From positions 1 through 53,136 of IMG/VR virus record IMGVR_UViG_3300019776_001111: 53,136 nucleotides of DNA; one strand, written 5' to 3'. The translations under genes and the position numbers were made by a program. This DNA is from a virus. Shown here one piece after another: positions 911 to 48,405 of the stretch (its first letter is position 1; each line of letters begins with the position of its first letter). Under the pieces are notes generated by a model. That model saw only the letters and a program-made list of their open reading frames with translations, was not told the DNA's origin and did no database searches.

Positions 911-1794
911 TGCTTCACCCTCTTGAACTCGACGACCCAGACCCATGGGTTCGCGTTCCATGCGTGCGGGCCATTGATCGATGACCAAAGCGATTCGAAG
1001 CTTGAAATCGGATCGTTGGTCCCGGCGTGCTCTCTGTCGTAAACACGCCATTTGCTGTTGCCGGCCGGGTCGAGTGTTTCGTTGTATTCGATGCCCTCGG
1101 CCCGTGCCTGATCCTCGCTGATGTCCTGCAATCGCTCGACGCGCACGTCAGTGATCTCCAGCAGGATGCGGCTGGCCCAGCGCGGCATGTGGATTGAAGG
1201 ACGTCCCCGGCCTTGTGTGATCATGGAGCAGCCGGTTTGCCGAATGGCGTCGTCTGCTGAGTAGAGGATCGGCTCGCCCTGGCTCAAATCTCTGGGTGCA
1301 ATCGAGTCCATCTGTGCATCTGCTGCCCAGGCCTCGCGCACCCACAGGCGATCGCCTTTCCGGCCATACGGGCATCCTCCGTACAAGGCCAGCTCAGCGG
1401 CACATTCCTCCTCGGTCGCACCGAATGCGGCGAAGCCCCAGCGCGGGTGATCTTGAACAACGGCGATCCACTGATGGTCCGGTGAGTCGGATTTGCTACG
1501 ACTGGGAATTTGATTCCCTTTGATCGGGCGGCGCGTGACCGTCTTCTGTGCGGAAAGGATCGCGCGAACCATCGCACTGCTGAAAAGAATAGGCCGCTCT
1601 TTGTAGAACGGTTCAGGCGCGGGACGTGGTTTGTCCATTTTCGCCAGGCACCGCTTGCAGGTGACTGAATCGCGCTTGTGGGTGCCCTCCCAATCAACCT
1701 CGGATTCTTCGCTGAGCCCGCAGACCGAGAGCGACCACCGCTCGTTGTCCTGCGTGCAGCCGGAGTCGACTATGAGGTGGCTTTTCCTGAGCAT
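907..1794 (-). CDS. Phage ASCH/morphogenetic-protein-like protein
   Basis: A 295-residue protein resembling phage proteins often labelled morphogenetic protein, which carry an ASCH-like nucleic-acid-binding fold. The visible hallmarks are a central segment reading KERPILFSSAMVRAIL followed by KTVTRRPIK, then GDRLWVREAW, and the C-terminal LWSSINGP plus NPWVWVVEFKRV block. The first 50 residues contain a Cys pair (VTCKRCLAKM) that is probably a short zinc-binding extension. The family is common in early regions of proteobacterial phages; the older morphogenesis label is not well supported and RNA/DNA binding is a guess from the fold. It lies directly downstream of the reverse transcriptase gene and is coupled to the next small gene by an ATGA overlap. 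Confidence 0.75.
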   Translation of the reverse strand: MLRKSHLIVDSGCTQDNERWSLSVCGLSEESEVDWEGTHKRDSVTCKRCLAKMDKPRPAPEPFYKERPILFSSAMVRAILSAQKTVTRRPIKGNQIPSRSKSDSPDHQWIAVVQDHPRWGFAAFGATEEECAAELALYGGCPYGRKGDRLWVREAWAADAQMDSIAPRDLSQGEPILYSADDAIRQTGCSMITQGRGRPSIHMPRWASRILLEITDVRVERLQDISEDQARAEGIEYNETLDPAGNSKWRVYDREHAGTNDPISSFESLWSSINGPHAWNANPWVWVVEFKRVKQ

Positions 1795-1837
1795 GACGGT
1801 TCCTTGCCGCTATAGCGGCTGACTTTGAAGGGATTGG

Positions 1838-2998
1838 TTATTTCTTCGGGTAGGTCTTTGTCAGCGCGCCGTTGACGGCATGTCCGCGCTTCAGGACGAC
1901 GTTGGCCAGCTTCTCCCGGTCCTTCCCGCTGTGGCTGGCCTGACTGAGCAGGCCGAAGTAGCTGTTGGCGGTCTCGCGCAGATCCTCGGCAGGTGCTGCG
2001 GCCGTGCGCTTCAGTGCCTGGGCCAGTGACCGCTTGCGAGTTGATCGCCGCCACGGCTTGATGACATGGCCAACGAAGTCGACGCCGCGATGCACGGGCT
2101 GGAGGATGGTCTTACTCGGGTTCAGCTTGGCGCCGAGGCTGGGCAGGAACGCTTCAACCTCTGCCAACCAGGCGTTGAGCTGTTGTGGCGACTCATGCAG
2201 GAACACGAAGTCATCGACGTAGCGTACGTAATGCTTGGCACCGAGCTTGTGCTTTGCAAACTGATCCAGCGCATCGAGGTACACGTTGGCGAAGAACTGC
2301 GACGACAGGTTGCCGATGGGCAGCCCGAGCCGTGCTGGTTGCGCGGTGAGCCGTTTGTGCTGCGGCACCCGGTTGAACAGATGGGCCGGGCTTCGCACCT
2401 CGTAGTCTTCGCGAGGGTCGTGCATCAGGATCTGTTCGGCGAGTGCCGACCACCAGGGTTCGGTGATCTTGGCGGCCAGCTGCTTGCGCAGAACCTCTTT
2501 GTCGATCGCGACGAAGAAGTTGGCCAGGTCCAGCTTGAGATACCAGCAGGGCTTCGACCAGTTCTGGCTGGCGCTGCGGATCTTCGCCTCAAGCCGGGTA
2601 GCGGCGTACAACGTGCCGCGCCCGGGAATGCATGCGCAACTGTCCGCTATGAAGCTGGCGTAGAAGCGCGGTGCCACACGGTTGTACAGCAGGTGGTGGA
2701 CTACGCGGTCCCGGAAGGCAGCAGCCCAAACCTCTCGGGCTTTCGGCCGGGTGACCACGAAGCATATGGAACGGCCTGGCCGGTAGGTGCCGGCGATCAG
2801 GTCGTCGTGTAGGCCGATCAGGTTGCGCTCCAGGTCCATTTCGAAAGCCAATGCACTGGCGCTGTTGCGCTTCGAGCGGCGGCAGTCGTAATAGGCCTGA
2901 ACAAGCTCGCTGAACGGGTAGGGACCAACATTCGAATCTGCGGACGGGGCGGACGCGCGCGGTGTTGTTCTTGTCGTTGTTGTTCTGATTGCCATCAT
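1838..2998 (-). CDS. DGR reverse transcriptase
   Basis: Retron/group-II-like reverse transcriptase of the diversity-generating retroelement type. It would copy the template-repeat RNA into cDNA while misreading adenines. Visible motifs: YLKLDLANFF (residues about 153-162, first catalytic Asp157), GLPIGNLSSQFFANVY (about 225-240, the IGxxxSQ signature that separates DGR RTs from QGxxxSP retroviral and intron RTs) and YVDD at 260-263 (catalytic Asp pair). There is no maturase or endonuclease domain, as expected for DGR RTs of 300-400 aa. The only in-frame ATGs before the conserved N-terminus are at 2998 and 2995, both inside the template repeat, so the first ~20 residues are TR-encoded in a different frame from the target genes. 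No good Shine-Dalgarno is visible there, so the true start is uncertain. avd lies upstream. Confidence 0.95.
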   Translation of the reverse strand: MMAIRTTTTRTTPRASAPSADSNVGPYPFSELVQAYYDCRRSKRNSASALAFEMDLERNLIGLHDDLIAGTYRPGRSICFVVTRPKAREVWAAAFRDRVVHHLLYNRVAPRFYASFIADSCACIPGRGTLYAATRLEAKIRSASQNWSKPCWYLKLDLANFFVAIDKEVLRKQLAAKITEPWWSALAEQILMHDPREDYEVRSPAHLFNRVPQHKRLTAQPARLGLPIGNLSSQFFANVYLDALDQFAKHKLGAKHYVRYVDDFVFLHESPQQLNAWLAEVEAFLPSLGAKLNPSKTILQPVHRGVDFVGHVIKPWRRSTRKRSLAQALKRTAAAPAEDLRETANSYFGLLSQASHSGKDREKLANVVLKRGHAVNGALTKTYPKK

Positions 2999-3037
2999 CG
3001 AAGTTCATGTTGAATGCGTTGTTGGCAGAGCGCTGCG
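2938..3037 (-). repeat. DGR template repeat (TR)
   Basis: A 100-bp copy of the three variable repeats, read on the minus strand. Its coding-strand centre is rich in AAC codons. In the frame of the target genes it would read QRSANNAFNMNFDDGNQ and continue with more Asn codons to TARVRPVR, but no ORF uses this frame: an in-frame TAG lies just upstream. The 27 bases at the GC-rich 3' end (coding sense) are identical in TR and all VRs and are the likely initiation-of-mutagenic-homology segment. The TR sits between avd and RT and overlaps the RT 5' end by about 60 bp. Confidence 0.95.
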
Positions 3038-3209
3038 ACCTATCGTGCTATCTACGTCGCCAAGCCGAAGGCAGAGCCGATCAGCAAGGAAACTGCGCGA
3101 GACCTGCACGGACGCTTTAGACCGTCGGTATCTCTGATGCGCATGGCGGTGACCCAGAGGTCAGCGGCACGACCAGATTCAATTCGCACAGACCTGAAAG
3201 CCATAACTC

Positions 3210-3566
3210 TCAGATGGCGGGCGCGGTTGGGGTGGAGCGTTTCCAGGCAGTGGCCTGTTTACCGATCGAGGAAGTAACCTCTATCGAAGTGGCATGCTGC
3301 CCGACACTGATGAACCGACTCTCCTTGAAGAGTCGCATCAGGAACTCGATGACCTGGACCTTCTCTACCAGCAGGGTCAGGTGTGGGTGCTTGTCCCGGG
3401 TCGAGTTGGCCCGGGCAATCAACATCAGCACGTCGATGCACTCATCAATGACGCGCTTCCCGAGAGACTGCTTGAGATCTCGGGGGATATTGCGGGTGAG
3501 GTTCGTCGCCATCTGGAGCAGGCCCAGCGACACCTTGTAGATGCTCAGCTCTGTGTGCATTCCCAT
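3210..3566 (-). CDS. avd: Avd-like DGR accessory protein
   Basis: A 118-residue, mostly helical protein with the four-helix-bundle pattern of the accessory variability determinant (bAvd) family: helices at about 5-35, 38-58, 64-90 and 95-112, with the conserved run LSIYKVSLGLLQMATNL near the start and LGKRVIDECIDVLMLI in the middle. Known Avd proteins form basic pentameric barrels that bind the RT and the template RNA and are needed for mutagenic cDNA synthesis. The start at 3566 follows GGAG with ten-base spacing. Gene order target-avd-TR-RT is the same as in the Bordetella phage DGR. Confidence rests on fold pattern plus position. Confidence 0.85.
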   Translation of the reverse strand: MGMHTELSIYKVSLGLLQMATNLTRNIPRDLKQSLGKRVIDECIDVLMLIARANSTRDKHPHLTLLVEKVQVIEFLMRLFKESRFISVGQHATSIEVTSSIGKQATAWKRSTPTAPAI

Positions 3567-3591
3567 TGCAGTAAATCTCCATGAAGAGCAA

Positions 3592-3609
3592 CCGGCCGCA
3601 AGCGGCCGG
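3592..3609. other. GC-rich hairpin downstream of VR1
   Basis: Perfect inverted repeat CCGGCCGC-AA-GCGGCCGG (8-bp stem) between the end of the VR1 target gene and avd, 30 bases beyond the 3' end of VR1. No T-run follows on the minus strand, so it is not an ordinary terminator. In the Bordetella phage DGR a short GC-rich hairpin just downstream of the VR is needed for target recognition; this could be the equivalent, which is inference. Confidence 0.5.
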
Positions 3610-3623
3610 ATTAAATAAGCAAA

Positions 3624-4244
3624 TTAATCAATCAATTGACTGCGGACGGGGCGGACGCGCGCGGTGCTGTGCTTGCCGTCGTCGTACTGAGTGCCACCAT
3701 CGAAGAACATGTAGAAAGCGTAGTAGGCAGAGCGCTGCGTTGACGACAAGTACCAGGTGTCACGGAAAGCCTCTGGGCCATCTTCGCGGAACGCTTCGTT
3801 CGTGGTCTGGGCTGGCGACTCATCGGTGTACAGCAGGCCGACAGGCTCGCTGTTGGGGTTGTCGCCGTCGCGGCGGCCGGCCCAGTTGGATTCGGTTGTC
3901 GGCTTGAAGTGGCGATACTGCAGCTCCTGCACATCCCGCGCCGGGATCGCCCAGTCGGTGTAGCCGCCGATGTCCAGAGCCAGAACCTGTTGAGCCAGGT
4001 CGCTTCCTGCCGCTGCCATCGCTTCGGTGTTGGTCCGACTGTTGGTGAAGCTGTCGGCGCCTTCGATTTTCACGCCGTACTCGCCCCAGGCGCCCACCAA
4101 TTCATGCGCGGCGCCGGCGGTGATGTTCAGGTAGCGCTTGCCGGTGTCCGGATCGCGGGTGATGCCGGCGAAGAATCCGCCACCGAATGCCTGGCCGATT
4201 TCCGGGAGGGTGGCTGCTGGTGCTGCTTGCTCTGCTGCGGACAT
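3624..4244 (-). CDS. DGR target protein 1 (DUF1566/Lcl-like)
   Basis: A 206-residue protein whose last ~38 residues are the DGR variable region. I start it at ATG 4244, which has AGAGGAAA upstream; a longer frame would run back through a terminator. Conserved blocks: GGGFFAGI near residue 22, WGEYGV near 52, DWAIPARDVQEL near 95, then DTWYLSSTQRSA leading into the VR (residues about 169-202) and ending ARVRPVRSQLID. The C-terminal layout (W-S-S-T...N-rich loop...RVRPVR) matches the DUF1566/Lcl family, whose C-type-lectin-like fold displays variable residues for ligand binding. No signal peptide or membrane segment. It is a paralogue of the genes at 4323-4928 and 11144-11722. Ligand unknown. 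Confidence 0.85.
   Translation of the reverse strand: MSAAEQAAPAATLPEIGQAFGGGFFAGITRDPDTGKRYLNITAGAAHELVGAWGEYGVKIEGADSFTNSRTNTEAMAAAGSDLAQQVLALDIGGYTDWAIPARDVQELQYRHFKPTTESNWAGRRDGDNPNSEPVGLLYTDESPAQTTNEAFREDGPEAFRDTWYLSSTQRSAYYAFYMFFDGGTQYDDGKHSTARVRPVRSQLID
3640..3739 (-). repeat. DGR variable repeat VR1
   Basis: 100 bp aligned without gaps to the TR. It differs at 14 sites, all of them adenines in the coding strand of the TR. Encoded variable core: QRSAYYAFYMFFDGGTQ, then Tyr-Asp-Asp-Gly-Lys-His-Ser, against mostly Asn and Asp in the TR frame. Confidence 0.95.
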
Positions 4245-4322: not shown

Positions 4323-4928
4323 TCAAATAAAGAATCTGCGGACGGGGCGGACGCGCGCGGTGCCGCTCTTGCCGCCGTGGCTCTGACTGCCAGCATCGAA
4401 GTCCATGATGAATGCGGTGTTGGCAGAGCGCTGCGTTGACGACAAGTACCAGGTGTCTTTCGCGAACAGGTCTGGCACGTTCACCCAGCAGTGGTACAGC
4501 TCGGCACAGGCGGGCAGGTAGAAGTCCGTGTGTCCATCGGCGGAGTATTCATCAGCGGCCTCTGCTGCAGGGTGGCCTCCATCAGCCAGCAGAATGACGC
4601 TGTTCGCGTGTCCGTCAGTCTTGCTGGTGGCTCCTGATTCTTTACCGCGTTTCCCCCATTCATGATCACCAACATCATTGGCGGCGATGATCAGATAGTG
4701 CGCAGGGACATCTCCGCGAGCTGGTATGAGCCCACCGTTGAAACCGCCTTGGCCTGGCCATTCTGCGCCGAGCGCGGGAACACCTGCTGCGACCTGGACA
4801 GGTTGAACATTGGCCGCCGGCGGCAATGTCTGGGCGAGCAGGCCGGCCATCAGCACCTGCACCATCCGCTCAGAGGTTCCTTTGATCTTGAGGCCGTCAG
4901 CCTCAATGGAAATCGTTTTGGTCTTCAT
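4323..4928 (-). CDS. DGR target protein 2 (DUF1566/Lcl-like)
   Basis: A 201-residue protein ending in the second DGR variable region (residues about 165-198). It has an N-terminal beta-rich lead (MKTKTISIEADGLKIKG), a helix, an Ala/Pro linker, then the shared core with EWPGQGGFNGGL, HEWGKRGKES, DGHTDFYLPACAELYHCW and TWYLSSTQRSA before the VR, ending TARVRPVRRFFI. The core resembles the distant paralogue at 11144-11722 more closely than target 1. No signal peptide, so it is probably cytoplasmic or virion-packaged rather than secreted. The C-terminal C-lectin-like fold is inferred from the DUF1566/Lcl pattern; the bound ligand is unknown. Confidence 0.85.
   Translation of the reverse strand: MKTKTISIEADGLKIKGTSERMVQVLMAGLLAQTLPPAANVQPVQVAAGVPALGAEWPGQGGFNGGLIPARGDVPAHYLIIAANDVGDHEWGKRGKESGATSKTDGHANSVILLADGGHPAAEAADEYSADGHTDFYLPACAELYHCWVNVPDLFAKDTWYLSSTQRSANTAFIMDFDAGSQSHGGKSGTARVRPVRRFFI
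4336..4435 (-). repeat. DGR variable repeat VR2
   Basis: 100 bp aligned without gaps to the TR. It differs at 13 sites, all TR adenines on the coding strand. Encoded core: QRSANTAFIMDFDAGSQ, then Ser-His-Gly-Gly-Lys-Ser-Gly. Confidence 0.95.
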
Positions 4929-5403: not shown

Positions 5404-6054
5404 TCATTCCTGCTGCTTCTGCGCCTTTGGGAAGAAGGCCGGTCTTGCGTTGGATTTTGGATAGTCGATGTCGAAATTTTCGAGGATGCGAGTGAAAGCG
5501 CGATATGAAATGCCAGCCTTCGCGCGCGCTTGGTTGCGAGTAAGGCCGAGCTCCTTGAATGCCTTGATGCGTTCAGCGTCTTTGGCATCTTTCTCTTCAT
5601 CAACATTGCAGCGCAGGTTAGCTTGGCTTTTGAATGCGGCCCGCTGAAACTTGAAGCCGTTGGCTTTGGCCATATTGGTCAGTGTTCTGCGCGACAGACC
5701 AGTGCTCATGATCGCTTGCGCGTAGGTCATGGTTTCGGCGAGCTTTCTGATGCGCTCGATCAGTTCCAGCTTTTCCCGAGATCGCTCTATGGCCCGTTCC
5801 TCGCGTTCAATGTCGCGCTGTGCCAGTTTATCGAGCCATGCCGGCGTTTCTGGTTTTGGTATCGGCTTGGCTTTGGCTGCCTTCTTCTTCGGAGGCGGCT
5901 CATGTCTCACGGGCGGCGGAACAAAGCTCGGCCCCTGCAATACCTCAATAGTCCCTCCTTTGTTCAAGAAAGCCTCCTGAAGCAGGGCCAGTTCGTGGCG
6001 TTGAGGGTCGAGCATCTGGATCATGGAAAGCTCGGTGCTTACGTATGCGTTCAT
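5404..6054 (-). CDS. Coiled-coil and HTH-containing hypothetical protein
   Basis: A 216-residue protein of no named family. Residues 50-72 are a Pro/Lys-rich linker (PPPKKKAAKAKPIPKPE). Residues 78-110 form a charged helix. Two HTH-like units follow: MTYAQAIMSTGLSRRTLTNM at about 110-129 and LGLTRNQARAKAGISYRAF at about 172-190. It overlaps the exonuclease gene by four bases (ATGA type). A DNA-binding role is inferred; it may act beside the recombination genes. Confidence 0.6.
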   Translation of the reverse strand: MNAYVSTELSMIQMLDPQRHELALLQEAFLNKGGTIEVLQGPSFVPPPVRHEPPPKKKAAKAKPIPKPETPAWLDKLAQRDIEREERAIERSREKLELIERIRKLAETMTYAQAIMSTGLSRRTLTNMAKANGFKFQRAAFKSQANLRCNVDEEKDAKDAERIKAFKELGLTRNQARAKAGISYRAFTRILENFDIDYPKSNARPAFFPKAQKQQE

Positions 6055-6818
6055 GCTGCTTTACTCCGCAGTTTCGCCTCATACCCGTCGACCAGCAGCT
6101 TGAATTGCCACAGGTCTTCCTCAAGCTTTTCGATGTAGTCGTCATCGCGCTTGAACTCTTGCAGCCAAAGCTGGCGGCCAACCGGCTTAAGCAGCGGGCA
6201 GTACATCCCGATGTGCCACCATTTGCGATCAGTGATCCACATGCAGCCCTGCACTTGGTCGATGATCCCGCTGGCATCGTTGTCGATGTGGAAGGACCGC
6301 AGCTTTTCCGGGGCAAGGAAGCATTTGTACTCGGAACCGCCGTCCTCACCGATAAAACCGTCAGCACTGGCCCCGAAGGCGCCATCGTCGGTCTTGACCA
6401 GTCCGACCTGAGTAACGATCAGACCGGTTTGGATTTCGTGTTCCATGCGGGCCTCAGGTTCAAGCTCGTGGCCGCGGCGCATCTGCCAGGTCTCGAAACC
6501 GTTGTCGAGGGGCTTCCCGCCGATCCGCTCGACGGCCAACTGGAAGGCGTAGTCGAGGGCGGCTGAGGATGGCTCGCCGACTGTTTCGCCATCCAGGGCA
6601 CGCTGTACCACTTCAGCCTTCGGGCCAGCCTTGTAGCCGGCCAGGTCGCGGGCTTTCGCTTCGCTGTGACCGGCCAACATCGCATCTACGTAGGTGCGTT
6701 GCTGTACGGTGAGCCCGTTCACCTTGGAGCGGGCTGTGGTGAACATGCTGGCCGTGATGCAGCCGGCACGCTCCTGGAGCCAGATGTCTGACCCCTGCGT
6801 GCAATTGATCTGGATCAT
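6051..6818 (-). CDS. YqaJ-family phage exonuclease
   Basis: A 255-residue protein of the YqaJ/lambda-exonuclease recombinase family, which degrades one strand of double-stranded DNA to make 3' tails for annealing. Landmarks: QGSDIWLQERAGCITAS at the N-terminus, MRRGHELEPEAR (about 143-154, with the catalytic-core Glu), GASADGFIGEDGGSEYKC (about 177-194, the D...ExK nuclease motif) and a Gln-rich helix IIDQVQGCMWIT. Usual length for the family. It is encoded immediately downstream of an ERF annealing protein, the classic exonuclease/annealase pair of phage recombination, with a four-base overlap. In DGR phages it could also affect cDNA or target-DNA processing, which is speculation. Confidence 0.9.
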   Translation of the reverse strand: MIQINCTQGSDIWLQERAGCITASMFTTARSKVNGLTVQQRTYVDAMLAGHSEAKARDLAGYKAGPKAEVVQRALDGETVGEPSSAALDYAFQLAVERIGGKPLDNGFETWQMRRGHELEPEARMEHEIQTGLIVTQVGLVKTDDGAFGASADGFIGEDGGSEYKCFLAPEKLRSFHIDNDASGIIDQVQGCMWITDRKWWHIGMYCPLLKPVGRQLWLQEFKRDDDYIEKLEEDLWQFKLLVDGYEAKLRSKAA

Positions 6819-7573
6819 TCGGGCGTCTCCAAAATCGCTTTGCGTGCGGTGACAGCAGTTTTCACTGTGCCGTAGCCATGCGTATCGCCAGACGCTTGCA
6901 AGACCTTCAAGCTTGCCTGCCAGACGTCTTTCAACTCGTCTGGTGTTTTCGTCTGCTGGACTCGCTCTAGAATGTCCGCGACAACCTGGGAGCGCATGTC
7001 GTCGGTATCAGAACCGTCAGCCGACTGGCCGTCATCGTCGCGAGCCTCGCCAGTGGTGATATTGAGCAGCGCACACATCACATATCGCTTGCCGTAGGTC
7101 ACAGACGATCCAACGGCTTGCACGTCATTCCGGCCCTTGCCGGCGTCGATAGGCAAGAACATCGTGGTGTCTTCCCGGTGGCCAGCGCTGTGCATGAGGA
7201 TGCCTTTGACGCTGACTCCGGCCCCTTCTCGGTCAACCTTGAACGTAATTGCGAAGCCGTGTCTCTGCATGATCGGCTTCAGGGTTACGTTGATGTCATC
7301 CAGGGTGGCATAGGTGTTGCCCGTATGCAGGTTTACGGCGCCTTCTCCTACAGTGGGGATCTCGCACTGCATTTGAGCCATGGCTGCGTTAAACGCCTGC
7401 TCAGCGTCCTTCGCCTGCATGCGTTCGTGCATTTGGAGAAGGCGCTCCATCTTGTCGATGTCGCACGACGGGTCGGCTGCGGCCCGACTGATGACCGCCA
7501 TGATGCTTGTATCGTTGGAGATGGATGTCACAACCTGGCGGCGCTGCTCCGGCATGATGATTTCTTGTGCCAT
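6815..7573 (-). CDS. erf: ERF-family single-strand annealing protein
   Basis: A 252-residue ERF superfamily annealase, which binds single-stranded DNA and promotes strand annealing during phage genome circularisation. The family signature is visible as YATLDDINVTLKPIMQRHGF at about 105-124 and GSSVTYGKRYVMCALLNI at about 170-187. The C-terminal part is acidic and probably the host-SSB or partner-binding tail. A second Met (MPEQRR) seven codons in is an alternative start. It overlaps the YqaJ exonuclease by four bases and follows the coiled-coil gene closely. Confidence 0.9.
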   Translation of the reverse strand: MAQEIIMPEQRRQVVTSISNDTSIMAVISRAAADPSCDIDKMERLLQMHERMQAKDAEQAFNAAMAQMQCEIPTVGEGAVNLHTGNTYATLDDINVTLKPIMQRHGFAITFKVDREGAGVSVKGILMHSAGHREDTTMFLPIDAGKGRNDVQAVGSSVTYGKRYVMCALLNITTGEARDDDGQSADGSDTDDMRSQVVADILERVQQTKTPDELKDVWQASLKVLQASGDTHGYGTVKTAVTARKAILETPE

Positions 7574-11143: not shown

Positions 11144-11722
11144 TTAAATAGGCAATCTGCGGACGGGGCGGACGCGCGCGGTGAAGTCCTTGCCGCTGAT
11201 GCTCTGAGTGCCAACACCGAAGTACATGACGAACGCGTAGAAGGCGGAGCGCTGCGTTGACGAACAGTACCAGGTCTTCTCGAAGTGCTCAGCGATGTTC
11301 TGCCATGCGTGATTCAGTTCGCCGATGCTGGGCAGGTAGAAGTCGTGGTGGCCGTCGGCGGAGTGATTGCCGGCTGCCTCTGCTGCCGGGAACGATCCAT
11401 CAGCCTCCAGCAGGGTCGTGGTATTCAGGATGCCGTTGACCTTGCTGGTGGCGGAGGTCTCGGTGCCGTATTCACCCCAGGCATGCTCGCCAATGTCTTT
11501 GTCGGCGAAGATCAGGTGGTAAAGCTCGCCATCCTCACCCTGCCTGATGCCGGCGTAGATGCCACCTTGGCCTGCCCAGTAAGTGCCGATCGCCGGAACG
11601 TCGCTATTCGCCGCCGGCGCCTTGGCTTGCTCGCCGCCAAGAACCATGTTCGCAAACATCAGCACCAGCGCCTTGTCGGGGCTGCTGATCGTCGATTCGC
11701 CGCAAGTGATATGAGTCATCAT
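11144..11722 (-). CDS. DGR target protein 3 (remote; DUF1566/Lcl-like)
   Basis: A 192-residue paralogue of DGR target 2, encoded about 7 kb upstream of the RT on the same strand. Shared blocks: YWAGQGGIYAGI, HAWGEYGTETSATSK, a SADGHHDFYLPSIGEL segment and TWYCSSTQRSAFYAF leading into the variable region at residues about 156-189; it ends ARVRPVRRLPI. The start has AAGGAGTACAGAAC upstream. The N-terminal 40 residues form a hydrophobic helix (KALVLMFANMVLGG) plus Ala/Pro linker, also present in target 2. This helix could be an oligomerisation or membrane-contact element. It has its own downstream terminator. As a remote VR it shows that the DGR acts on separate loci of the same phage. Confidence 0.85.
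   Translation of the reverse strand: MMTHITCGESTISSPDKALVLMFANMVLGGEQAKAPAANSDVPAIGTYWAGQGGIYAGIRQGEDGELYHLIFADKDIGEHAWGEYGTETSATSKVNGILNTTTLLEADGSFPAAEAAGNHSADGHHDFYLPSIGELNHAWQNIAEHFEKTWYCSSTQRSAFYAFVMYFGVGTQSISGKDFTARVRPVRRLPI
11157..11256 (-). repeat. DGR variable repeat VR3
   Basis: 100 bp aligned to the TR without gaps. 17 differences lie at TR adenines (coding strand) and one lies elsewhere (an A-to-G at plus-strand position 11246, a non-adenine site in the coding strand). Encoded core: QRSAFYAFVMYFGVGTQ, then Ser-Ile-Ser-Gly-Lys-Asp-Phe. Confidence 0.95.
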
Positions 11723-13020: not shown

Positions 13021-13797
13021 TTACCAGAGCACGGAAGACCAGAAGACGCGGCCTAAAACCAGAATATTCTGATCCAGCATTTCTTGAACGGTGTATTCCT
13101 CATCGGGATGCTCATCACGATTGAAGCTGCGCATCCTGATGCCACCACCTGGAAGTCGATACAGCGTTTTGACTCTCAATTGGCCGCCATGGTCAATGGC
13201 ATACATCTTCCCATCCGTAATAGACGTGGTTCCTTGGTCCACGCCAACAGTGCAGCCGTTCGGAAGGACCGGCTCCATGCTGTTTCCACTGACTGTGACG
13301 CACACGGCATCAGATGGCTGAACACCTTGACGGCGCATAGTCATCTTCCCGAGGCGTAACTTTTGTTTATGTGATTGTTGAACGGCTGTGCGGCCTTGTC
13401 CTGCTGATAACTCTACTTCCTTGAGGAATGGCACGTAGACCTCGTCTTCATCGAGCGGAGTCTCATCGTCCCATACCTCTATAGGGCCGAGGAACTGCGC
13501 GTTCGACAAATCTCGGCGAGGAGCAATGCCGCCCGTCGTCATCTTCGCGATCTCTTCCGAAAGCCGCTCGCTGAACTCCGATACCTCAATGCCAAGGATT
13601 TTGGCGAAGGCTGCGGCCACAGGAGCGTTAAGCGGATTTATGCCATTCAGGTAGTGACTCACGGAGCTCTGGTTCATATCGAGCGCGTGCGCCAGCTTTT
13701 CTTGGGTCAGGCCCAAGTCCGACTTTCGCGAGTTAAAGATTGCCTTCAACCGAAGGCATTCCTCTTTCTTGTCGGGGGGTAAAGGTTTTTTGCTCAT
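13021..13797 (-). CDS. CI-like LexA/S24 lysogeny repressor
   Basis: A 258-residue prophage repressor. The N-terminal HTH is at about residues 27-52 (LGLTQEKLAHALDMNQSSV), followed by a linker and a LexA-like S24 peptidase dimerisation domain. The self-cleavage site Ala-Gly is at about 132-133 (VELSAGQGR), with catalytic Ser173 in SGNSMEPVLPNG and Lys210 in QLRVKTLY. RecA-stimulated autocleavage after DNA damage would release PL and PR. It is transcribed leftward, divergent from the Cro-like gene, with operators in the intergenic space. The ATG directly abuts a GAAGG sequence, too close for normal initiation, so translation may be weak. Confidence 0.92.
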   Translation of the reverse strand: MSKKPLPPDKKEECLRLKAIFNSRKSDLGLTQEKLAHALDMNQSSVSHYLNGINPLNAPVAAAFAKILGIEVSEFSERLSEEIAKMTTGGIAPRRDLSNAQFLGPIEVWDDETPLDEDEVYVPFLKEVELSAGQGRTAVQQSHKQKLRLGKMTMRRQGVQPSDAVCVTVSGNSMEPVLPNGCTVGVDQGTTSITDGKMYAIDHGGQLRVKTLYRLPGGGIRMRSFNRDEHPDEEYTVQEMLDQNILVLGRVFWSSVLW

Positions 13798-46689: not shown

Positions 46690-46709
46690 TTTCACTCATT
46701 CAACTCTAT

Positions 46710-46732
46710 GCCCGCCTTGAGCGGGCTTTTTT
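46710..46732 (+). terminator. Terminator before the tail fibre gene
   Basis: GCCCGC-CTTGA-GCGGGC then TTTTTT, 12 bases before the fibre start. Confidence 0.8.
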
Positions 46733-46743
46733 ATGGGGATTCC

Positions 46744-48405
46744 ATGGACAGACAGATCGTATACCCAGGCCAAATTCTGCCGGAGACCAGCCTGCTCCAG
46801 ATGGCCAAAGATTCCATGATTGGCTTGGCAAAGTTGTCTTCAGCTGTGCTTGGCACCAGTACCATGGCCAATGGCTTTGCTGTGACTCCGACCGGGCCTG
46901 CCTCTCTACAAGTAGTCTGTGCGCCTGGCGAGATCTACAGCCTGACCAGTATCGACGCCTTGGCATTCTCGACGCTACCAGCCGATACCACCCACTCGAT
47001 CATGAAGCAGGGCATCCTGCTCGATGGCGTGACACTGAGCTGCCCAGCGCCAGGAACGACCGGTCAGTCGATCAACTATCTGGTGCAGGTGACCTATCAG
47101 GACTCCGACTCAACGCCAGTCCTGCTGCCTTACTACAACAGCGCCAACCCCGCTCTGCCGTACAGCGGGATGGGCAACAACGGTCTTACCCAGAATACCA
47201 ACCGCAAAGGGATCGCTGTTGTTGCTGTAAAAGCGGGCGCCTCTGCGGTGACTGGCAGTCAGGTAACGCCAGCTCCAGATGCGGGCTATGTCGGCCTGTA
47301 CGTGGTGACTGTCGCATTCGGCCAGACGACGATCACCTCGACCAGCATTGCGCAATACAGTGCCGCGCCACTTCTGCCGAGCGGTATTCTTCAATCCATA
47401 CAGAACGGCAACACGTCGTTCGCCATCGATACCGGTACGGCAAACACCTACGTCTGCAACTTCACACCGGCAATTACTGCGCGCGCAGAGGGTCAGGTCC
47501 TGCGCGTCAAGGTCAAGACTGCGAATACCTCAGCATCAACTTTCAACGATGGTCTGGGGGCTGTGGCTCTGGTCGGTGGCGCGCATTCACCACTTCAAGG
47601 CGGCGAGCTTATCGCAAACGGTGACGCCTGGGTTCAGTGGAACACCTCAGTCGGTGGTGGCTCATACATCCTGCTGTTTTGTACAGGAGCGGCGGAGCAA
47701 GTCGCGCCAGCCACCCAAAGCCAGCATGCTCTTCAGCAGCAGCAAAAAGGGGTTTCGCGCTTTACCGCAAGTGGCAGCTTCACTGTTCCACCCGGTGTAA
47801 CAACAATCTACGCCTCCGGCTGCGCTGGTGGTGGCGGAGGCGGTTCTTCACTTTCTACAAACGCGTCGTCATTTGTAGGTGGTGGCTCCGGTGGTGGTGC
47901 CGGTCAGCCTGCTATTCGCATACCGATCACTGTTACGCCAGGCCAAGTCATTCCCGTAACGATAGGGGCTGGCGGAAATGGTGGAACAGCCGCGACGAAC
48001 AATGCAACGGACGGCGGCGCTACTCAGTTGGGCGCGGCGGGCGCGCTGTTAAATTTGGCGGGTGGACTCAAGGGTTCCTTAGGGGCAGGCGGATCCACAG
48101 TCCCAGGGAATTATGGCGGTCCAGGTGGTGGCGTTGGATTCCCGTCTGGTGGTTTTGCACAGGATACCACTGTGTATGCAGGCAATATTGCTTATGGAGG
48201 TTTCGGAGGTGTCGGCGGAAGCGGTCCGTTCGGTGCGTCAGGACCTGCTGGGCGTGGCGCAACCGGGTCGAGTCCACCGGCTGGTGCTGGCTTTGGTTTT
48301 GGTGCCGGCGGGAGTGGCGCTGGCGGCGCGTATAGCTCGACTGTCGTAGCCGCTGGCGGGCCAGGTGCAGCTGGAATGCCGGGCTTATTGATAATTGAGT
48401 GGTGA
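46744..48405 (+). CDS. Tail fibre protein with glycine-rich C-terminus
   Basis: A 553-residue receptor-binding fibre. The N-terminal baseplate-attachment region (DRQIVYPGQILPETSLLQMA) and beta-rich shaft are followed by a C-terminal domain of about 180 residues extremely rich in Gly (TIYASGCAGGGGGGSS, GGSGGGAGQPAIRIP, GAGGNGGTAATNNATDG, FGFGAGGSGAGGAYSS), as in glycine-rich polyglycine-II receptor-binding tips of some phages. It starts at ATG 46744 after GGGGATTCC. It is not a DGR target: no VR-like repeat is found here. Chaperone encoded next. Confidence 0.88.
   Translation: MDRQIVYPGQILPETSLLQMAKDSMIGLAKLSSAVLGTSTMANGFAVTPTGPASLQVVCAPGEIYSLTSIDALAFSTLPADTTHSIMKQGILLDGVTLSCPAPGTTGQSINYLVQVTYQDSDSTPVLLPYYNSANPALPYSGMGNNGLTQNTNRKGIAVVAVKAGASAVTGSQVTPAPDAGYVGLYVVTVAFGQTTITSTSIAQYSAAPLLPSGILQSIQNGNTSFAIDTGTANTYVCNFTPAITARAEGQVLRVKVKTANTSASTFNDGLGAVALVGGAHSPLQGGELIANGDAWVQWNTSVGGGSYILLFCTGAAEQVAPATQSQHALQQQQKGVSRFTASGSFTVPPGVTTIYASGCAGGGGGGSSLSTNASSFVGGGSGGGAGQPAIRIPITVTPGQVIPVTIGAGGNGGTAATNNATDGGATQLGAAGALLNLAGGLKGSLGAGGSTVPGNYGGPGGGVGFPSGGFAQDTTVYAGNIAYGGFGGVGGSGPFGASGPAGRGATGSSPPAGAGFGFGAGGSGAGGAYSSTVVAAGGPGAAGMPGLLIIEW

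Follow-up and report, generated by a model that had tools for sequence, protein, structure and literature searches.

Gene content and features of the cassette

The window, by which we mean the whole stretch of 53,136 nucleotides analysed here, is a viral contig (IMG/VR record IMGVR_UViG_3300019776_001111) with genes for an integrase, a CI-like repressor, replication, terminase, portal, sheath and a tail fibre. It appears to be the genome of a temperate, myophage-like virus, and its relatives suggest a Pseudomonas-type host. On the minus strand we found a reverse transcriptase (RT), an accessory protein (Avd), a template (TR) and three copies of it (VR1, VR2 and VR3) in three target genes, which together very probably constitute a functional diversity-generating retroelement (DGR) in a temperate phage. 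DGRs as such are a known kind of system. The features are listed below.

1838..2998, minus strand: DGR reverse transcriptase open frame, with IGNLSSQ and YVDD motifs in the translation
2938..3037, minus strand: TR, 100 nt including 31 A; the RT open frame begins within it and so overlaps its 3' part
3210..3566, minus strand: Avd accessory protein (Pfam bAvd, phrog_3206)
3624..4244, minus strand: target gene 1, 206 aa, VR1 near the C-terminus, phrog_4245, with a start codon and AGAGGA upstream
3640..3739, minus strand: VR1, 14 differences from TR, all at A
4323..4928, minus strand: target gene 2, 201 aa, VR2 at the C-terminus
4336..4435, minus strand: VR2, 13 differences from TR, all at A
11144..11722, minus strand: target gene 3, 192 aa, VR3 at the C-terminus
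11157..11256, minus strand: VR3, 17 A-site differences from TR plus the ancestral C at TR position 11

The RT matched phrog_1423 at E=3e-117 (2.8e-117), which places it among DGR-group RTs, and its best relative of solved structure was 8ub7 (E=8e-36), whose length of 328 aa equals that of brt as annotated in phage BPP-1. The Avd protein scored 45.8 bits against Pfam bAvd, above the cut-off of 40, and fell below the cut-off of NCBIfam NF033474. We considered whether the locus might be a defence RT or a retron, in which case the adjacent RT-15 (described below) would be its RNA component and the repeats would be paralogues with no connection to it, given a weak similarity of the RT to DRT and retron RT models and the fact that RT-15 is named only for its RT neighbour. 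However, the NCBIfam defence and retron scores are all far under their cut-offs (43.6 of 235, 39.7 of 390 and 39.2 of 200 bits), the best family is a phage RT family, Avd is present, and A-only substitutions are foreign to such systems; we regard this origin as extremely improbable.

The only ATGs of the RT frame (2998 and 2995) fall inside TR, and the FDDG codons of the VR frame account for them. Outside TR, the window frame has no ATG, GTG or TTG ahead of the conserved part of the protein, and no clear ribosome site for the RT was found there. Translation may begin at one of the ATGs inside TR or at a non-standard codon; in phages Haboob and phPA-G, an ATG follows immediately after TR instead. 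A start inside TR was set aside as a novelty, since such overlap is a known DGR layout: according to PMC3521204, DiGReF structural group 3 comprises DGRs whose TR overlaps the RT frame at either its 5' or its 3' end. An RT frame that opens within TR and lacks a canonical start or ribosome site might also indicate a relic, in which the VRs were diversified long ago and the RT is now dead for want of a proper start. Against this, the frame is intact in nearly all related loci (74 distinct frames with no internal stop), otherwise identical relatives differ in VR, and native BPP-1 brt likewise lacks a clear ribosome-binding site (PMC12875486), which leaves a relic improbable. Within the coding region, synonymous variation among the 74 relatives falls to 0.06-0.09 over RT codons 97-120 (window about 2639-2710), versus about 0.2 elsewhere.

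Adenine-specific substitutions between TR and the VRs

Mutagenic retrohoming is recognised by template-directed rewriting that is specific to adenines. The original prediction had compared the four copies by eye and counted 44 differences at template adenines against one elsewhere, and a script recount on the minus (coding) strand returned the same figures: 14 of 14 differences in VR1 and 13 of 13 in VR2 are at template adenines, and VR3 has 17 at adenines and one at another site, so that 44 of 45 differences are at adenine and an excess of non-adenine differences is absent. The adenine share of TR, first put at about 31, is exactly 31 of 100. All four outcomes occur at A sites when the three VRs are pooled (A 49, G 21, T 17, C 6), and hypergeometric P values for A-specificity are 6e-9, 3e-8 and 6e-10 for VR1, VR2 and VR3, respectively, and 2e-25 pooled. 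The reading of this pattern as a footprint of mutagenic retrohoming is also supported by the presence of the RT and Avd machinery and by signs of recent activity in relatives, and we infer that retrohoming is the step behind it.

Nearly all TR adenines (30 of 31) are at codon positions 1-2, in AAC-type codons, and each VR carries 11-13 amino-acid changes and no stops. Such placement could in principle arise without any reverse transcription, from paralogue divergence combined with gene conversion and with selection acting on asparagine codons, but the 69 non-A sites, third positions included, show 0 or 1 change. Across 300 distinct TR-VR pairs from relatives, 45% of A sites were changed versus 0.34% of other sites, the latter being a lower bound because pairs were filtered for at most 3 non-A mismatches. 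Divergence without reverse transcription is therefore hardly credible as an explanation.

The sole non-A difference, at TR position 11, is T in TR and C in VR3. None of the other distinct TRs compared has T at this position and most, nearly all, have C, suggesting that TR changed after VR3 was last written there and that VR3 looks older than the change. The young T is also present in VR1 and VR2, so both would have been written later. A block, ACCGCGCGCG, is present in VR1, VR2 and VR3, and among the TRs compared it occurs only in the window TR and in that of L013, the nearest relative. Because VR1 and VR2 share the young T and all VRs share ACCGCGCGCG, the direction of copying is from TR to VR.

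The homology between TR and the VRs begins, on the 5' side, exactly at the originally predicted border; on the 3' side VR1 stops at the border and VR2 and VR3 extend a few bases beyond. As in other DGRs, there is an IMH-like GC-rich 3' end, GCGCGCGTCCGCCCCGTCCGCAG, that is identical in all four copies, directly after which the copies diverge (TCAATT, ATTCTT and ATTGCC versus ATTCGA). A search for a further TR/VR copy in the 53-kb record found none.

Phage DGRs have been reported to carry a GC-rich hairpin with a 4 nt GRNA loop just downstream of VR (PMC3240598). A candidate was found 30 nt downstream of VR1:

3592..3609, minus strand: candidate target hairpin, GC-rich inverted repeat CCGGCCGCTTGCGGCCGG

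Stems of at least 7 within 70 nt downstream of VR occur at 111 of 300 VRs versus 18 of 300 at a control place. We did not accept these as standard DGR hairpins: they are enriched, but their loops differ, being mostly CTTG and not GRNA, and the one after VR2 resembles a terminator.

An RT-15 RNA and a predicted helix that brackets TR

Directly 5' of TR lies an RNA of the Rfam family RT-15, and a predicted helix joins it to the far side of TR:

3036..3226, minus strand: RT-15 RNA (Rfam RF03018), full-length match, 180 bits, E=5e-44, ending at the TR border
3174..3182, minus strand: 5' arm of the bracketing helix, UUGAAUCUG, from consensus fold and covariation
2932..2940, minus strand: 3' arm of the bracketing helix, CAGAUUCGA, at the 3' border of TR

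The phage relatives tested, from Burkholderia, Shewanella and Pseudomonas aeruginosa, also have RT-15 matches. In viral contigs the RT-15 pattern was found at 78 loci, with a DGR RT directly downstream in 67, Avd upstream in 70 and an A-specific repeat in place in 61. Rfam names RT-15 solely for its RT neighbour, and a literature search, whose reach did not extend to the original description, found no paper naming RT-15.

In a consensus fold of 28 diverse sequences, AUCUG of RT-15 pairs with CAGAU at the 3' border of TR. The next-but-one pair beyond these is variable: among 69 distinct arm pairs it is GC in 34, TA in 17, CG in 10 and AT in 3, and the position is paired in 65 of 69 versus 29 +/- 4 in shuffles, a count inflated by the relatedness of the sequences. 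Four pair types at one position would be hard to explain in other ways. The window's own minimum-energy fold includes the helix, with a pair probability of about 0.36.

The BPP-1-type RNA 3' of TR was not found. Phage_DGR (Rfam) gave no match in 1700-3700 up to E=10, and no structured-RNA signal was detected 3' of TR, where RT codons 25-96 have synonymous variation similar to the rest of the RT. The possibility that the RT coding region hides an Sp-like element was considered and rejected, as synonymous variation after TR is normal. The role of the BPP-1 3' RNA has probably moved to the 5' side in the lineage of the window.

Target genes and their genome setting

The three targets (192-206 aa) form one family, phrog_4245, and carry their VRs C-terminally, as DGR targets do; target 1 scored below the cut-off of Lcl_C, and a C-type-lectin fold is putative. 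A structure model of the VR3 target, confident except in the VR loop (pLDDT <50) and a linker, resembles viral DUF1566 proteins, its viral fold matches including both short DUF1566 proteins and long S74/collagen/tail proteins, and a PDB fold search with it gave no match. The model of target 1 (pLDDT 43) was unusable. Distant homologues of the target proteins occur in the jumbo Pseudomonas phages PA5oct, MIJ3, Paride and similar (285-kb) phages.

Target gene 3 lies towards the repressor, at a distance of 6.8 kb from target 2, and other genes mark the region as an early leftward operon:

6051-6818, minus strand: YqaJ-type exonuclease, between the targets
6815-7573, minus strand: Erf-like annealing protein, between the targets
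13021..13797, minus strand: CI-like repressor, at the upstream end of the leftward target-bearing operon

All three targets lie in this operon with recombination and repressor genes, and not among the tail genes. Homologues of the targets are found in the P. aeruginosa phages PMG1 and phi_D3 (D3/PMG1 group), and in the PMG1/D3 phages that carry them no match to the DGR region was found; in RT-less prophages, too, a target of the third type still adjoins CI. Because the targets lie in a repressor-led operon, have CI-side homologues and have homologues in phages with no DGR match, we favour a role in early intracellular recognition over tail attachment, while putting its probability at about even. 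Second VRs near counter-defence genes have been reported in gut prophages (PMC12629997), which points in the same direction.

Characterised viral DGR targets are mostly tail proteins (PMC8144416), and with the long S74/collagen/tail proteins among the fold matches of the VR3 model, the targets could be virion receptor-binding proteins like Mtd of BPP-1, with the DGR changing host range and the gene position merely unusual. This seems unlikely, though it deserves weight, as all three targets sit amid repressor and recombination genes, the window's own tail fibre gene (46708-48405) has no VR, and homologues in other phages occupy the same early place beside CI.

Two further features were observed in the window. 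A Proteo-phage-1 RNA (RF03044; 8890-8966, minus strand), located between target 3 and the region of the Erf gene, only slightly exceeded its gathering score, and a tRNA-Met gene lies within the phage genome (23377-23453, plus strand).

Relatives and recent activity

The same cassette layout was found in 88 loci, whose TR overlaps the RT frame at its 5' end. In nearly all of them, the distance upstream of the reference codon is about 830 nt for VR1 and about 1,525 nt for VR2; many also have a third, distant VR. Natural variation among close relatives was observed directly. L049 and L175 share exactly the same sequence in 1,020 bases of RT and in 700 bases of flank and differ in VR at 19 A and 0 other sites, L175 being a short contig and possibly an assembly mix. 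L079 and L080, which come from two metagenomes and are identical over the same span, have VRs that differ at 14 A and 0 other sites and at 17 A and 1 other site. In L008 and L012, with a few flank differences, the VRs differ at 12 and 13 A sites and at no others. Because near-identical relatives differ almost only at VR adenines, we conclude from these comparisons that the DGR lineage is recently active, as seen in relatives of the window's own phage.

The TR upstream of the RT in L062 is VR-like, with many A's lost, and the VRs of that locus differ from it at only 2-3 A's; VR sequence appears to have replaced the template there. Smaller VR-like patches of this kind were seen in the TRs of L063, L074, L077 and L085.

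RT-less prophages and possible diversification in trans

A search of 399 Pseudomonas genomes gave TR or VR matches in 32, and in 3 of these 32 RT was absent. VRs of RT-less prophages agree with the TRs of other phages at almost all non-A positions, and where related RT-less pairs are compared, nearly all of the VR differences are at A. Phages Aurca01 and Medea1 have VRs but lack TR, and of RT they retain only the final codons. The Aurca01 VRs have 0, 0 and 1 non-A mismatches to the TR of phage Cruim01, a near twin of Aurca01 over 11.4 kb, and in near-identical DNA around VR1 and VR2, Aurca01 and Medea1 have 15 A-site differences in each VR, with 1 and 0 at other sites. We did not take this pair as proof of action in trans, as a divergent patch between VR1 and VR2 permits a recombination tract.

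The RT-less prophages L302 and L269 can be aligned over 2,972 bases. Of the 96 mismatches in this alignment, 17 are within the 100-base VR, 16 of them at A; neither the L302 record nor the whole L269 genome contains an RT. Pseudomonas sp. Irchel 3E20 (G013) has one RT in its genome, and its TR has a private A (zero-based index 81) that is found in it alone among 65 distinct TRs. Three VRs on RT-less contigs of this genome carry A or C at that place. This was likewise not accepted as proof, since the genes are 96-98% identical to copies in the same genome and recent RT loss is also possible. In one metagenome, a DGR contig occurs with two RT-less contigs of 39-40 kb whose VRs fit its TR at every non-A letter. 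In L317, neighbouring RT-less target genes (6165-6264 and 6876-6975, minus strand) have VRs that fit two different TR types. In another RT-less prophage, a gene that by eye is HNH-endonuclease-like (L264:1508-1984) replaces avd-TR-RT beside two VR genes.

Recent RT loss or recombination explains each of the RT-less cases singly; taken jointly, they suggest diversification in trans, which would account for all of them. As judged from these sequence comparisons, it is close to an even bet that RT-less phages have their VRs rewritten by the DGR of another prophage resident in the same cell. A precedent is found in Thiohalocapsa PB-PSB1, where remote VRs fit the TR of another locus at all non-A sites, which was read as action in trans (PMC10907252). 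That case concerns one bacterium's own loci, whereas here the action would be between separate phages or prophages.

Comparison with known systems and a proposed mechanism

The cassette resembles the DGR of Bordetella phage BPP-1 (mtd-avd-TR-brt) in A-specific copying from TR to VR, in having Avd and a related RT, in the C-terminal position of VR in the target, and in the order target, avd, TR, RT on one strand. In BPP-1, avd ends at TR and a 144 nt spacer precedes brt, whereas in the window 172 nt separate avd and TR, and RT overlaps TR. The RNA of BPP-1, Phage_DGR (RF03022), is 3' of TR, and RT-15 in the window is 5' of it; BPP-1 has one tail-protein target, in contrast to three targets in an early operon. 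Burkholderia phage Magia is like the window in that RT-15 is present and TR overlaps RT, and its RT is about 68% identical to that of the window. Its depositors annotated two candidate targets as lectin-like, of which one is close to avd and the other close to the repressor, whereas our A-specific scan found three copies. For DiGReF group 3, the accessible part of PMC3521204 gives no RNA element or early-operon targets, unlike what is found in the window. A 5' template RNA with a bracketing helix, together with early-operon targets, sets the lineage of the window apart from the known DGRs compared here.

We propose that a leftward early transcript would contain the RT-15 RNA followed directly by TR. 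RT-15 would fold, and pairing between its AAUCUG arm and CAGAUU, which lies at the 3' border of TR, would present TR as a closed loop beside a docking structure for Avd and RT, an RNP architecture we infer. RT and Avd would then make cDNA from TR with misincorporation opposite A, and the cDNA would replace VR1, VR2 or VR3, steered by the identical GC-rich 3' end. As a predicted outcome, three small proteins that are made early in infection and are apparently non-structural would each bear a C-terminal recognition surface, randomised independently of the other two; these might recognise, for example, host, defence or rival-phage factors.

Significance

These observations give the orphan RNA family RT-15 a likely job, as the 5' half of a DGR template RNA, and offer a testable model in which the template is held as a loop by a helix across TR, a mirror of the BPP-1 layout. 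They also indicate that the site of action of DGR targets may be the cell interior, at an early stage, and not the tail. The RT-less carriers raise the possibility of a new relation between co-resident prophages, a shared mutation machine. If the trans reading is true, RT-less phages would be satellites of another phage's diversification machine, and counts of DGRs by RT genes would undercount the genes under targeted mutation.
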